From Flavivirga sp. 57AJ16 (GTDB lineage: Bacteria; Bacteroidota; Bacteroidia; Flavobacteriales; Flavobacteriaceae): a stretch of 64,000 nucleotides of DNA. The notes below the pieces were generated by a model that worked only from the letters and a program-made list of their open reading frames with translations, had not been told where the DNA came from and made no database searches. Location of the stretch: positions 248,001 to 312,000 of the forward strand of contig NZ_JAQZAT010000003.1 in assembly GCF_028736925.1 (NCBI RefSeq), in the 5' to 3' direction. Shown here piece by piece: positions 1,715 through 64,000 of the stretch. How positions within the stretch are numbered: the first letter of the stretch is position 1; each line of letters starts with the position of its first letter. Position numbers and translations under genes: made by a program.

Positions 1715-2265
1715 AATCAAAATATTTGTCTTATTAAAAAATTGGACAAGCATTCTGGAATTTACATTCCATTTTATTTGGTAAAAATAGAAGTCCTTTG
1801 TTTTACATCTTAATTGATAATACTTTTTCATAGAGCAACCCAATAGCCATATATTTTCGTCTAATTTTTAGAGTAATCGAAAAATATAAATATGAAGCCG
1901 GTCAAGATTAAAAATGCTAAAAATCATGACACTAATTATTCTTTCAATCTTAAATTTGAAGTGGTTGACTTAATAATACTAGTTTTGGGAAGTCACATTT
2001 ATAAAGAAAAACTTAACTAAAGACATTGTAGATGTGGCATTCTTAAAGCTTCCATATTAATTACAGGTACAGATAAAGATGATTATTTTGTTATTTCAAG
2101 AAGGATATATACGTGTTAATGATTATGTATTCTATCGTTCTTCAAATAGGTCTATTTATAGACTCTATCATACTCCTCTTTTTTTAACGTATTGATAATA
2201 AACCTGTTATTAAACCAACATCTATTTAATCCTTGTTTTATCTCTTACAACTAAATTAGTTAGAC
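1715..2265. other. Intergenic stretch without a recognisable gene
   Basis: AT-rich. It holds only a short plus-strand open frame (ATG at 1893, about 42 codons) with no family resemblance, followed by stop-rich sequence. It may be further decayed coding sequence upstream of the ppk remnant, but nothing identifies it. Confidence 0.4.
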
Positions 2266-3248
2266 ATGAAAACAAAAGAGAAAACTAAAAAGCAACTTTT
2301 TAAGAATCTTGAAATTAATTGGTTACCCTTTAACGAGAGAGCTTTAAAAGAGGCTACCTACAAAACCAATCCTTTGTATGAACGTATTAAGTTTCTCCCA
2401 ATATTTTCATCAAACCTTGATGAGTTTTTTAAGGTTAGAGTATCTAAGTGAAGGCAGATAAAAACTATTAAAAAAACTATCCGAAAACCTTTAGTCTTAA
2501 AACCGAACAAAACCCTAAAAATTGTTCTCAAAGAAGTCTCTAGACAACAAGAAGAATTTGGAAGGATATTTTATAATGAAATAAAACCGGAACTCACTAA
2601 ATTTGGGATTACTATTTTAGAGCTGTCGGATTATACTCCAAATGACATTAATTTTCTTAAGGATGCTTTTCACAAAAAAATCAAACCAGAAATTCAATTA
2701 ATGCCTCAGCATGACATTGAAAAATAATTCCTTTGAGGATGGGGAAATATACTTGGTATTAAGTCTTAAAAATAGTCAAGACATATCATTTATATCTATT
2801 CCCACAAAAACCATAGGTCGGTTTGTTGACGTTTCACCTAAGGATCATAGGTATCGGGTTCCTTGAAGATGAATATGAAGGTGAATGGATACAACAAATT
2901 TATGATGCTTTGCCAAAAAGAGAGCAAGGGCACCCTACAAGGCTTCTCCACGAAGAAAATATGTCTGATGTTGCATTGAACAAGGTCCAGGGTTTATTGA
3001 AATTAGGTCCAGCAGATACGGTATCAGGAGGCAAGCACCACAATTTTAGAGATTTCTTTAATTTTTACAACCCTCTAAAAAACCCAGATTTAAACTATAA
3101 ACCCTTCCCTCCAATTATTCACAAAGATTTTCAAAATACTGTGAGTATATTTAGGTTGATACGCAAATCAGATAGACTATTGCATTATCCCTATCATAGT
3201 TTTGGGCATTTAGAAAATTTTCTAGAACAATCTGCAATTGATAAAAAA
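2266..3248 (+). pseudogene. ppk1: Polyphosphate kinase remnant, frameshifted and truncated
   Basis: The family makes polyphosphate from ATP. The N-terminal part is clear: [13 protein letters not shown] and [15 protein letters not shown] match the conserved PPK1 start. An in-frame TGA at 2449 interrupts it; the frame then runs on to TAA at 2725. Coding resemblance moves to another frame after an A-rich run near 2720 (EIYLVLSLKN ... SIPTKTIGRFV). An internal stretch is missing before a third segment (2823 on: FLEDEYEGEW, KHHNFRDFF, LLHYPYHSF, FLEQSAID). Homology stops at about 3248, roughly halfway along the usual ~690 residues, so the catalytic histidine region is absent. The break lies 25 bases from the end of the first sugar-locus gene. 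Clearly non-functional. Confidence 0.88.
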
Positions 3249-5204: not shown

Positions 5205-5370
5205 TCTTTTGGTTTATTAATTCAGTTTGTTGCTTTACGCTATCCTTATTGTTTTGAAATGACCAACAATGATTAAAACACGACTTAAACAAAACTTTAA
5301 TTTTATATTTAGATTTAGCATTTTTTTACCCCGACAGCAGTTAAAAATATCATCCTAAAACGTAAGTAAT

Positions 5371-61107: not shown

Positions 61108-61653
61108 TTAATTTAAAAAATGTTTAACTTCTGCTTCTAAACCCTCATAAGTAAATGATTTTTCAAAAAATTTTTTGCTATCATTTTTATATATAATAGT
61201 TGCCGGTATAGATCCCGACCAATCTTTATTTACTTTTGGTATCCATGAATTCATATCCACATCATCCAAGGCGATTACTTTAGATTTTAATTTTCTTTTT
61301 TTTATAAACGGCTTTAGTTTGGATTCATATAAATGCGGAAAATCTAAACTTACCAGAATAACCTCGACATTTTTATCTCTATATTGTGAATTTAATTTCT
61401 CAAAATACGGCAGCTCTTTCACACAAGGTGCGCACCATGTAGCCCAAAAATTAATGACATAAATTTTATCATCTTTCTTATTCAAAAATTTTTCAAAGCC
61501 GTTATAATTGTAAACCTCTAATACAACATCGCTCGAATTCATTTTATCGTTAACTTCATGCTTAGTCATGTCGTGGTTATCTGCAACCCTTTTTTTCTCA
61601 TGCTTGCAACCTGTTATTATCAATATTGCAACAATTAATAGTTTTAATTTCAT
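61108..61653 (-). CDS. TlpA-like thiol-disulfide oxidoreductase (lipoprotein)
   Basis: 181 residues from the ATG at 61653, which places the lipoprotein signal (LLIVAILIITGC, Cys16) correctly; the longer frame from 61701 runs into the divergent trp promoter area. It has a thioredoxin domain with the active site FWATWCAPCVKELP (Cys74, Cys77) and SIPATIIYK with the cis-Pro. It reduces or exchanges disulfides in the periplasm. It is divergent from the trp leader and in line with the redox group downstream. Confidence 0.9.
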   Translation of the reverse strand: MKLKLLIVAILIITGCKHEKKRVADNHDMTKHEVNDKMNSSDVVLEVYNYNGFEKFLNKKDDKIYVINFWATWCAPCVKELPYFEKLNSQYRDKNVEVILVSLDFPHLYESKLKPFIKKRKLKSKVIALDDVDMNSWIPKVNKDWSGSIPATIIYKNDSKKFFEKSFTYEGLEAEVKHFLN

Positions 61654-61729
61654 AACTTTAAATTTAATTAATACTTTGATGTCTATATTATAGTTTAACA
61701 AACTTTTATATAAAAAATGTTTTAAACTA

Positions 61730-61760
61730 TTGCGTATTTATATTTTCATTTCTATATTTG
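61730..61760 (+). promoter_or_regulatory. trp operon promoter (TTG ... TATATTTG)
   Basis: A -33 TTG (61730-61732) and a -7 box TATATTTG (61753-61760) are separated by 20 bases, matching the Bacteroidota pattern. The leader peptide ATG follows 20 bases later. Confidence 0.75.
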
Positions 61761-61779
61761 AACCAACAAAAAAGTAAAA

Positions 61780-61836
61780 ATGTATCAAATTTTAAATAAT
61801 ACTTGGTGGTGGAGCTTCAGAAACTTATGTTCGTGA
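61780..61836 (+). CDS. trpL: trp operon leader peptide
   Basis: An 18-codon frame, MYQILNNTWWWSFRNLCS, with three tryptophan codons in a row (61804-61812). It lies between a well-formed promoter and a strong hairpin, with the trpE gene further on. This is the classic layout of a transcription-attenuation leader: ribosome stalling at the Trp codons reports on charged tRNA-Trp. The stop codon (61834-61836) lies inside the segment that can pair with the terminator (61831-61837 with 61885-61891). A ribosome finishing the peptide would therefore mask the antiterminator. Confidence 0.88.
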   Translation: MYQILNNTWWWSFRNLCS

Positions 61837-61891
61837 AGGAAACCTAGTATATTTAAAACTTAAAATATCAAAAAAGGCTTGTCATTCACGA
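61831..61891 (+). promoter_or_regulatory. Candidate trp antiterminator pairing
   Basis: TCGTGAA (61831-61837) is complementary to TTCACGA (61885-61891), which is the loop and first bases of the 3' arm of the terminator hairpin. The two foldings exclude each other. The pairing is seen in sequence; the switching is inferred from the known logic of trp attenuators. Confidence 0.6.
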
Positions 61892-61906
61892 CAAGCCTTT
61901 TTTAAT
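61870..61906 (+). terminator. trp attenuator terminator
   Basis: A perfect 14-base stem (AAAAAAGGCTTGTC 61870-61883 with its complement 61890-61903), a 6-base loop and a T run. It lies 33 bases after the leader peptide stop. Confidence 0.88.
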
Positions 61907-61989
61907 GCTTATTTTTGGTCATTTCCGCGAAGGCGAAAATCGTATTAAATGGAAAAATGAATGTCTAGTGAAAAAATATATTATATCTA

Positions 61990-62115
61990 TATCATGTCGA
62001 ATAAAAAAAATGGCATTGAAGTGGTTTAAACTTTTTTGATTGAAGCGAAAAATAGTGATTTTATTCCCAAATGAATGCTTTTTTGCACTGCATAGCATCG
62101 CTACGGAGTAATAAA
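61990..62115 (+). pseudogene. 3'-end remnant of an older GIY-YIG gene copy
   Basis: The coding-strand pattern (TTTAAACTTTTTTGATTGAAGCG, then TTTGCACTGCATAGCATCGCTACGGAG, both shown here only in part) parallels the end of the downstream copy (near 62420-62505: ACTTTTTGGATTTAAGCG, GAGTTGCATAGCAGAGCTACGGA). The upstream stretch is thus a diverged copy of the same tail, with stops and without the nuclease domain. Confidence 0.55.
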
Positions 62116-62125
62116 AAGATAAAAT

Positions 62126-62558
62126 ATGGGGATAAAAGGACATTTTGCAGCCAATTATAAAAAGTTTAAACCACTTCATTATATACATTGGTATGTCTGG
62201 AAATTTAAAAAATAGAATTTATCAACATAGAAATAAATATAGTAAAGGCTTCACAAGTAAATATGGATTAGACAAACTCGTTTACTATGAAAAATTCAAA
62301 TTACCGAGTGATGCTATTAAAAGAGAAAAACAGATAAAAAAATGGCATAGAGACTGGAAGATTAATTTAATTAATGATTTTAATCCAGATTGGAACGATT
62401 TAAGTTTTTTTTTAATGAACTCATTTAGACTTTTTGGATTTAAGCGAAAATTAGAAGTTTTTGGCTCTGTTGAAGACTTTTTTGAGTTGCATAGCAGAGC
62501 TACGGAAGAAAAAAAAGACAAAAGCAGAGTTGAAAACAGCCATTTTTTAGCAAATTGA
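62126..62558 (+). pseudogene. GIY-YIG endonuclease-like gene with damaged N-terminus
   Basis: The small GIY-YIG family is clear from YIGMSGNLKNRIYQHRNKY, GFTSKYGLDKLVYYEKF and AIKREKQIKKWHRDWKINLI (the typical catalytic Arg, Tyr and Glu/Lys region). The first GIY-type strand is not in frame. From ATG 62126 the frame gives MGIKGHF...KPLHYI, and a one-base shift near 62180 is needed to join YIGMSG. The open frame only begins at a TTG (62145). The tail after about residue 95 is low in conservation and recurs upstream. Probably a recent pseudogene, unless a short form is made. Confidence 0.65.
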
Positions 62559-62633
62559 AAAAGCCTAAATGAGTTCAATAACAAAACTGATTAATAAAAT
62601 TTCCGCCTTCGCGGAAAAGACATAGAATTATTT

Positions 62634-64000
62634 ATGACAAAATATAACTTATACACACACTACAAAAAAATACTGGCAGACACCATCACGCCTGTAAGTA
62701 TATACCTTAAAATTAGAGACAAGTACCCTAATAGTATATTACTTGAGAGTAGTGACTATCATGCTAACGATAACAGTTTTTCCTATATCTGTTTTAATCC
62801 AATAGCTTCAATTAAAGTTGAAAATGATCTTATTAGTCAAACGTTTCCAGACGGAAGTTCATTAGAGAGCAAAATAACAGATCGTATGAATGTCTCTGAA
62901 GAAATACATCAATTCACAAAACGATTTGAGATTAATTCAGATACCGATTTTAAATTTATAAACAATGGTATTTTTGGTTATTTAGCCTATGATGCCGTAC
63001 GTTATTTTGAAGACATTAAAATATCCAAAAAAGATAATTCAATAAATATTCCAGATGCTTATTATGCGGTTTATCAGAACATCATTGCTATAAATCATTA
63101 TAAAAATGAAGCCTATATTTTTGCACATTGCCATAATACGGAAAGTAATATTGATGAAATAGACCATTTAATAAAAGTTAAAAACTTTGCATCATATAGT
63201 TTCTATTCAAAAGGAGATATCACATCTAATTTAACAGATGATGAATATAAAACACATGTGGAATTGGCAAAAAAACACTGCGCACGAGGTGATGTATTTC
63301 AATTAGTATTATCTAAAAACTTTGCACAAGAATTTAAAGGTGATGAGTTTAATGTATATCGAGCATTAAGAAGCATAAACCCATCTCCGTACCTATTCTA
63401 TTTTGATTACGGAAACTTTAAGATTTTTGGAAGTTCGCCAGAAGCCCAACTTATTGTAAGTGATAATAAAGCTGAGATTCATCCCATCGCCGGAACATTT
63501 AAAAGGACTGGAAACGATTCCCAAGATGCCGAATTAGCAAAACAGTTGGTAAAGGACGATAAAGAAAATGCAGAACATGTCATGTTAGTGGACCTAGCTA
63601 GAAATGATTTAAGCCGACATGGTAGCCATGTTACCGTCGATACTTATAGAGAAGTTCAGTTTTTCTCACACGTTATTCATCTCGTAAGCAAAGTTACTGG
63701 TGAGAAACATAAAGGCACCTCCACTATGCAAGTAGTTGCAGATACATTTCCCGCAGGGACGTTAAGTGGTGCGCCAAAACATAGAGCGATGCAACTCATT
63801 GAACAATACGAAAAAACGAGTCGTTCTTTTTATGGCGGAGCCATTGGTTTTATGGACTTTGAAGGTAATTTTAATCATGCTATTATGATTAGAACCTTTT
63901 TAAGTAAAAACCACAAATTACATTGGCAAGCTGGAGCAGGGTTAGTTTCAAAATCTAATTCAGAAAACGAATTACAAGAAGTGTATAACAAATTAGGAGC
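62634..64000 (+). CDS. trpE: Anthranilate synthase component I (3' end outside window)
   Basis: 455 residues visible. It forms anthranilate from chorismate with the TrpG glutaminase. Marks are an N-terminal LLESSDY (tryptophan feedback site region), CARGDVFQLVLSKNF, INPSPYLFYFDYG, GSSPEAQL, HPIAGTFKRTG, HVMLVDLARNDLSRH, FPAGTLSGAPKHRAM and YGGAIGFMDF ... IMIRTFL. The ATG at 62634 is the natural start, only 12 bases after the inverted repeat of the inserted element, so its ribosome-binding region was partly supplied by the element end. It is expected to be followed by trpG and the rest of the operon. Control is by the attenuator upstream. Confidence 0.95.
   Translation, partial: MTKYNLYTHYKKILADTITPVSIYLKIRDKYPNSILLESSDYHANDNSFSYICFNPIASIKVENDLISQTFPDGSSLESKITDRMNVSEEIHQFTKRFEINSDTDFKFINNGIFGYLAYDAVRYFEDIKISKKDNSINIPDAYYAVYQNIIAINHYKNEAYIFAHCHNTESNIDEIDHLIKVKNFASYSFYSKGDITSNLTDDEYKTHVELAKKHCARGDVFQLVLSKNFAQEFKGDEFNVYRALRSINPSPYLFYFDYGNFKIFGSSPEAQLIVSDNKAEIHPIAGTFKRTGNDSQDAELAKQLVKDDKENAEHVMLVDLARNDLSRHGSHVTVDTYREVQFFSHVIHLVSKVTGEKHKGTSTMQVVADTFPAGTLSGAPKHRAMQLIEQYEKTSRSFYGGAIGFMDFEGNFNHAIMIRTFLSKNHKLHWQAGAGLVSKSNSENELQEVYNKLG

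Follow-up and report, generated by a model that had tools for sequence, protein, structure and literature searches.

A broken GIY-YIG gene between inverted REP-like palindromes in the trp leader of Flavivirga sp. 57AJ16, probably the remains of an old cassette

How did some 700 bp come to lie between the attenuator of a tryptophan operon and its first gene, and is that gene still under the control of the attenuator? The question is raised by Flavivirga sp. 57AJ16 (Flavobacteriaceae), in a window of 64,000 nt (contig NZ_JAQZAT010000003.1, positions 248,001 to 312,000 of the forward strand), to which positions below refer unless another locus is named. The initial annotation of this window described a unit of about 700 bases with inverted end repeats after the trp attenuator, and both ends were found where it had placed them. 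The unit is composite: a GIY-YIG gene lies between two inverted palindromes resembling repetitive extragenic palindromes (REPs), accompanied by two 160-bp hairpin elements that make up ~45% of the unit. The best explanation, which we consider likely, is that an old and now broken REP-GIY-REP cassette sits in the trp leader, and that its nuclease acted on the hairpins at its own ends.

The unit follows a recognizable trp control region. Both strands of 61600-62640 were scanned for promoter-like sites and a single match was found, TTG-N20-TATATTTG at 61730-61760 (+), a pattern that we take to be of the Bacteroidetes promoter type. The trp leader with its attenuator follows at 61760-61906 (+), identified by an Rfam match, an inverted repeat and its fold (z -5.8). 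Rfam family RF01692 (Bacteroid-trp) matches 61760-61883 with 52.2 bits, above the gathering score of 49; a leader peptide with WWW can be read from the sequence at 61780-61836, and inverted-repeat search and folding place the terminator hairpin at 61867-61906. The attenuator that had been proposed from the sequence is therefore real, and what sets it apart from the Bacteroid-trp leader is the cassette between it and trpE. Including its GTC tags the unit spans 61917-62622, ending 11 nt upstream of the ATG of trpE (62634-64000, +), which continues beyond the window end and encodes 467 aa on the contig.

The left REP-like palindrome (61917-61942, +) has the tag GGTC, the stem ATTTCCGC/GCGAAAAT with one inner mismatch, and the loop GAAG; the left end TTTCCGCGAAGGCGAAAA occupies 61922-61939 (+). 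The right palindrome (62599-62622, -) has the tag TGTC and, on the - strand, the same 4-nt loop GAAG; here the end TTTCCGCGAAGGCGGAAA lies at 62600-62617 (-), and the stem opens with TT, leaving the outer pair unmatched. The tails of the two ends are CG and TT. At up to 3 mismatches the end pattern occurs twice in the window, both times in the unit itself, where 0.08 matches are expected by chance. A search for further copies of the ends gave a borderline result genome-wide: 13 sites at up to 2 mismatches were found against 3 for the reversed pattern, and only three sites are exact, two of them being the unit itself, so the exact ends are not high-copy. For a related type of end, GTCATTCCYGCNNNNGCRGGAATC, the genome contains 34 exact copies and the control none.

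Between the palindromes lies a GIY-YIG gene in two pieces. The upstream piece (61961-62014, +), read from the sequence, carries the first motif, YYIYI, assigned by comparison; the downstream piece (62181-62408, +) carries the second motif, IYIG, and the conserved R and E positions. The GIY-YIG coding content noted earlier stands, with Pfam family PF01541 matching 62145-62408 at E 3.9e-14. Only GIY-YIG families were matched by this piece in Pfam, so the HUH tyrosine transposase that defines a REPtron of the REP-associated tyrosine transposase (RAYT) kind was not found. The alignment of the family shows Y7, Y18 and R28 in all 145 rows and E65 in 143 of them; these match the catalytic residues of GIY-YIG nucleases. 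The closest solved structures by profile are two UPF0213 proteins, 1zg2 (E 7e-8) and 1ywl (E 1.5e-5), although the solved members are annotated as hypothetical proteins.

The gene is interrupted by a hairpin element. Unit A (62018-62177, +), of 160 bp with a perfect 20-nt inverted repeat at its ends, splits the gene between the two motifs from which the GIY-YIG family takes its name, and is bordered by a 3-bp target duplication, ATT (62015-62017, partner 62178-62180), which was read from the sequence and by comparison with the hairpin family. Unit B (62417-62576, +; locus L033), also of 160 bp, is located behind the conserved C-terminal part of the gene, with the duplication AAT at 62414-62416 and 62577-62579. 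Both fold strongly, unit A at -59.6 kcal/mol (z -9.1; 62015-62180) and unit B at -56.7 kcal/mol (z -5.9; 62407-62586), and no Rfam match near gathering score was found within either. Hairpins and reading frames had both been expected in the mRNA; the strong hairpins are there, while the long reading frames are chimeras of hairpin element and gene.

Other members of the hairpin family were found through the motif at its tip, GCATAGCANNGCTACGGA, which has 64 genome sites at up to 2 mismatches against one for the reversed pattern. Target duplication was evaluated at 30 tip loci among these sites, the two units of the window included, of which 29 had usable ends; an exact 3-bp direct repeat was present at the ends of 20, against 100 of 812 mispaired flanks. 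In an alignment of eight copies, 19 of the 50 predicted pairs have changed on both sides with pairing kept, so the fold is maintained while the arms drift. By these sequence features units A and B are a hairpin family like the miniature inverted-repeat transposable elements (MITEs), which they resemble in size, terminal inverted repeats, 3-bp target duplications, many copies and the absence of any gene seen of their own. They differ in pairing over their whole length as a single imperfect hairpin, whose tip is conserved and whose arms covary. Some relatives in the genome are altered: in loci L014, L030 and L034 short palindromes rich in CCTGCCTGCC appear by eye within the arms, and in L017, L018, L024, L026 and L043 one arm alone is lengthened by ~23 nt (TACCCAGTCAAGCTGAGCACATG), giving units of 182-183 bp.

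Is the cassette a newcomer to the trp leader? The trpE site was compared in 12 genomes of the genus, those of the strain itself and 11 congeners, with sites classed by eye. The full element is present in one of the 12, a lone hairpin-forming palindrome in four (G005-G008) and neither in seven, so that congeners lacking the element do exist for comparison. The lone palindromes occupy the position of the right palindrome here; in G005-G007 they are longer and have a different loop. Five of the seven congeners with neither share a short spacer holding a small palindrome of another sequence, and in G007 (Flavivirga amylovorans, locus L093) what appear by eye to be the first bases of unit B directly follow the terminator. 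GGAAAAGACAT also precedes the trpE ATG in three of the four lone-palindrome congeners; the claim that the element supplies part of the ribosome-binding region is not borne out, since this sequence is not new. Near trpE in G008 a Flavo-1 RNA (RF01705, 54.5 bits) was also seen (L052, 710-782).

Outside the genus, 2 of 80 GIY-YIG loci from GTDB genomes are upstream of trpE, one in Hyunsoonleella pacifica (L127) and one in an uncultured Flavobacteriaceae (L170). In L127 the order is RF01692 (1293-1417), GIY-YIG ORF (1489-1785) and trpE (1830-3236), and the palindrome core TTTCCGCGAAGGCGGAAA occurs at both ends of the cassette, the right one in the same position as in the window. The protein of L127 is 71% identical to the downstream piece over 75 residues. 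L170 also has an unbroken GIY frame, behind an attenuator judged by eye. The GIY-YIG genes of the window, L127 and L170 group in a tree (98/97 support; few columns). A recent insertion into the trp leader, as the initial annotation implied, is ruled out by the unbroken frames at the same place in L127 and L170. Since site and grouping are shared, the cassette would be an old resident of the leader that most congeners have lost or keep only in decayed form, and that is broken in this strain. In the trpE tree, of whose 11 inner branches only 5 are well supported, G003, which lacks the element, stands beside the strain itself, a placement that requires loss or exchange of the leader.

The same operon holds a second cassette outside the window. 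Between trpB and trpA lies an intact GIY-YIG gene with palindromes of its own (G000:C23:317167-317520; L092, 8168-8530). Within the genus this cassette is intact in five of the 12 genomes, decayed in two and absent from five. The same gap holds a close relative in Seonamhaeicola (L094), Tamlana (L095), Marixanthotalea (L097) and at L096, L098 and L145, the frames of L096 and L145 being shortened; in Winogradskyella (L139) the GIY-YIG gene found there is only distantly related (49% identity) and is accompanied by another REP. Over nine intact copies (21 of 36 pairs usable) the median ratio of nonsynonymous to synonymous substitution rates (dN/dS) is 0.068, range 0.044-0.148, leaving out L093, which is the G007 locus; with L093 it is 0.064 (26 of 45 pairs). 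The trpB-trpA cassette is under purifying selection. Covariation of left and right REP loops among its orthologues was also considered; it was hinted in other genera and not seen within the genus. The trpD-trpC gap of L092 (~5206-5362) has reading frames rich in Phe and Asn, a sign of simple DNA repeats.

The pairing of such a gene with inverted palindromes extends well beyond the trp operon. For each GIY-YIG gene the best ungapped inverted match (+1/-2) between its 120-bp flanks was scored, with a threshold of at least 12. The loci are the best 80 of 517 confirmed in GTDB genomes and 70 others, from Alphaproteobacteria (the class of G166), that were best by E-value among the matches listed; neither set is random. 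L100, L105 and L111 (frame >130 aa; 3 of the 80 from GTDB) and L222 and L274 (flank missing; 2 of the 70) were left out of the counts. The remaining 145 rows are 144 distinct loci (L204 equals L168). A matched inverted repeat flanks 87 of them and 3 of the 230 neighbouring ORFs taken as controls, with the reservation that loci sharing a genome or an orthologous site do not count as independent. The picture was the same with outward-shifted windows from the same contigs as controls: 45 of 77 loci from GTDB against 1 of 281 shifted windows, and 18 of 29 and 24 of 39 alphaproteobacterial loci against 0 of 98 and 2 of 156. In the order to which Flavivirga belongs, a set kept apart from the neighbour comparison, 16 of 29 loci matched against 1 of 113 shifted windows; its row for the strain itself was omitted (29 of 30) and a few short frames were kept (L184, L185, L193, L199).

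Matched GTDB loci include Bacteroidota, Omnitrophota, Elusimicrobiales, Clostridia, Saccharibacteria, Moraniibacteriota, Gastranaerophilales, Fibrobacteria and Ignavibacteria. Across 83 loci the inner edge of the REP is a median of 19 nt away from the start on one side of the gene and 14 nt from the stop on the other. REP type varies between loci and agrees within a locus, and REP similarity tracks protein similarity (Spearman 0.30, and 0.19 for pairs below 65% identity; neither value reached in any of 500 permutations; computed on 83 of the 87 loci, those with repeats >45 nt being left out). There is good support for the pairing of small GIY-YIG nuclease genes with inverted REPs, many of which are of the CGTC type.

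The strain's own genome also has inverted REP pairs with no gene between them. Several share their ends with a copy that does bear the gene: L293, L294, L299 and one of L295 have GGAATCCACT or AGTGGATTCC beside the palindrome, as does the gene-bearing L078, and the spacer of L293 resembles by eye a GIY remnant. L295 (G000:C45:116700-118700) is a tandem array of five gene-less pairs with spacers of 89-92 nt, and L304 (G000:C12:62000-64600) has three tandem REP-GIY copies with near-identical proteins, two of them with a stop inside the family match. Elsewhere in the genome small GIY-YIG genes stand upstream of tRNA-Pro or tRNA-Leu genes (L074, L085, L086, L087), with a partial tRNA-like copy before the gene by eye, possibly another, tRNA-using type of element. 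In the prfA-pyrF gap of G002 and G005 (L347, L348) there are ~720-770 bp with an ORF resembling by eye a signal peptidase; this gap is short in other congeners, several of which have a REP pair there.

Many of the cassette ends resemble a known superfamily. CGTC REPs, as described in the survey by Di Nocera, De Gregorio and Rocco from 2013 (PMC3733652), have the tag CGTC, often TGTC or CCTC, a stem of 8-9 bp usually opening with AT, a loop of 4-5, in most members a CCA tail, and an arrangement in inverted pairs. They are known in several phyla. The survey, which gave them their name, states that they apparently have no dedicated transposase and left their mover open; the word 'GIY' is absent from its main text. 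Some cassette ends fit this description exactly, for example CGTCATCCCGACGCAGGTCGGGATCCA in L233 and CGTCATCCCCGCGAAGGCGGGGATCCAG in L268, and the CCA tail is present in the ends of L104, L112, L233 and L268. The palindromes of the window fit less clearly: their tags are GGTC and TGTC, each has a single stem pair that does not match, and neither ends in CCA.

Gene and CGTC-type REPs also occur together at the level of genomes, in statistics that ignore genome size and kinship. Among 193 alphaproteobacterial genomes the CGTC-type pattern is present in 34, and the GIY family in 23 of these against 52 of the 159 others; with at least 10 REP copies, 12 of 13 genomes have the family against 75 of 193 overall (Fisher p 5.9e-5).

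The arrangement also recalls the REPtron, in which a gene stands between inverted REPs and gene-less REP pairs of the same type occur in the genome; here, however, the gene encodes a GIY-YIG nuclease instead of the HUH tyrosine transposase, RAYT. An enzymatic parallel may be the Ssn proteins, reportedly described by Chenal et al. (Nat Commun 2025) as GIY-YIG site-specific single-strand nucleases with cognate repeats in Neisseria, with which the family shares the GIY-YIG catalytic core (PF01541; Y, Y, R and E conserved). They are said to be small proteins specific for a multicopy repeat, with many homologues that have their own targets, and the report is said to concern cutting and transformation, not a transposable cassette in operons. 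If so, the pairing of gene and repeat is partly known already, and if the target is a CGTC REP, it is already in print; cutting of the REP hairpin on a single strand would then also be the likeliest mechanism. Among the titles listed from the open-licence PubMed Central literature none joined GIY-YIG to REP or CGTC repeats and none of relevance concerned insertion in a trp attenuator, which is weak evidence of absence in both cases.

How such a cassette might live and spread can be outlined. It would consist of a gene of ~95 codons between two inverted REP-like hairpins that resemble the CGTC type, and several Flavobacteriaceae carry it between attenuator and trpE in the trp leader; the nuclease would be made from read-through transcripts of the trp promoter. 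It would recognize the hairpin type of its own ends and cut or nick there, probably on a single strand; repair or copying would then spread the cassette, along with short REP pairs that share its ends, and might convert empty sites. The copy in the window would have been disabled by the insertion of element A into the gene and of element B behind it, both with duplication of 3 bp, leaving a longer trp leader that is probably still controlled by the attenuator. In its broader form the proposal is that REP-GIY-REP cassettes are a second, GIY-YIG-based kind of REPtron, in which the nuclease is the missing enzyme of the CGTC REPs, moving itself and gene-less pairs by cutting hairpins in single-stranded DNA, with operon gaps, the trp leader among them, as long-term homes. 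We regard this broader form as evenly poised between right and wrong.

A number of observations weigh against this reading. At the threshold used, 57 of the 144 loci have no matched repeat. Among differences between left and right stems, 18 pairs show compensation, 9 a one-sided change and 22 a broken pairing, evidence that is at best suggestive. A simple rule places the GTC tag outermost in 41 loci and innermost in 17, leaving 25 unassigned. Four of 21 alphaproteobacterial genomes with at least 5 REP copies have no GIY match, one of them with 11 copies. Among 146 genomes of the Flavivirga order the GTCATTCC-type REP pattern was found in 5 and the GIY family in 70, so that this one REP type does not accompany the gene there. 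In its genome the trp-type end comes close to being single-copy; it also has stem mismatches and lacks the CCA tail. The two ends of L170 are palindromes whose stems differ from each other, with a repeat score of only 10. For no cassette was a clean empty site with target duplication found, the intergenic regions of the congeners being too divergent, so mobility is deduced from distribution. Finally, long residence at one site together with low dN/dS could indicate a host function instead of mobility.

That last point can be developed into an alternative in which the cassettes serve the trp operon as regulator or processing genes kept by the host, for example in mRNA processing at the REP hairpins or as a tryptophan-controlled nuclease. 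Two separate cassettes stand in one operon, both co-directional with it, the same sites are occupied in other genera, and the trpB-trpA copy has the dN/dS values of 0.044-0.148 given above. A gene serving the operon would, however, have to be reconciled with a leader copy that is complete in only one of the 12 genomes and broken there, with a trpB-trpA copy intact in five, decayed in two and absent from five, and with similar cassettes at unrelated loci such as dut-rmlA and ridA-aldh (gene names by eye). We consider a host-kept function unlikely.

The gene might instead be cargo, inserted into pre-existing REP pairs or REP-rich gaps, with another enzyme moving the REPs. Gene-less REP pairs do exist, a lone palindrome marks the trpE site of G005-G008, and REPs are reported to be targets of insertion sequences (PMC1525189). 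Yet both REPs lie close to the gene, left and right match within a locus while types differ between loci, and REP type correlates with the protein. We consider the cargo explanation quite improbable. The weakest reading, that of the initial annotation, in which a recent selfish insertion uncoupled trpE from its attenuator, has the long spacing between terminator and trpE in its favour. Against it, two other lineages have unbroken copies at this site, the promoter pattern scanned for has no match within the element, and attenuator and leader peptide are kept; we give it very little credence.

With the old REP-GIY-REP cassette as the preferred reading, its effect on trp expression can be considered. 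The leader was said to be longer by about 700 bases, and it is: the spacing from terminator to trpE is ~730 nt, against 30-92 nt in the 11 congeners. The proposed rewiring of the operon finds no such backing. A promoter inside the element was looked for, and within the unit there is no site of the form TTG-N17-23-TANNTTTG on either strand (one Bacteroidetes-type pattern); the only promoter-like match is upstream of the leader, whose peptide and terminator are kept. Since transcription attenuators act independently of the distance to the gene, the simplest reading is that trpE remains under the attenuator, behind a longer leader, and it is probably still so controlled. The longer stretch with its two strong hairpins, to judge from the predicted folds, could have changed how stable the mRNA is or how well trpE is translated. 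Where the leader cassette is intact, as in L127, its expression would be expected to follow that of the operon under tryptophan shortage.

What the trp leader holds here is a cassette copy in decay, and the broader pairing of GIY-YIG genes with inverted REPs is the part worth following. For the trp operon, it means that cassettes can lodge in an attenuated operon between the switch and the first gene and persist there for long without evident uncoupling. For the repeats, a paired nuclease gene whose ends match within each locus turns the question of what moves CGTC REPs into a direct biochemical test.

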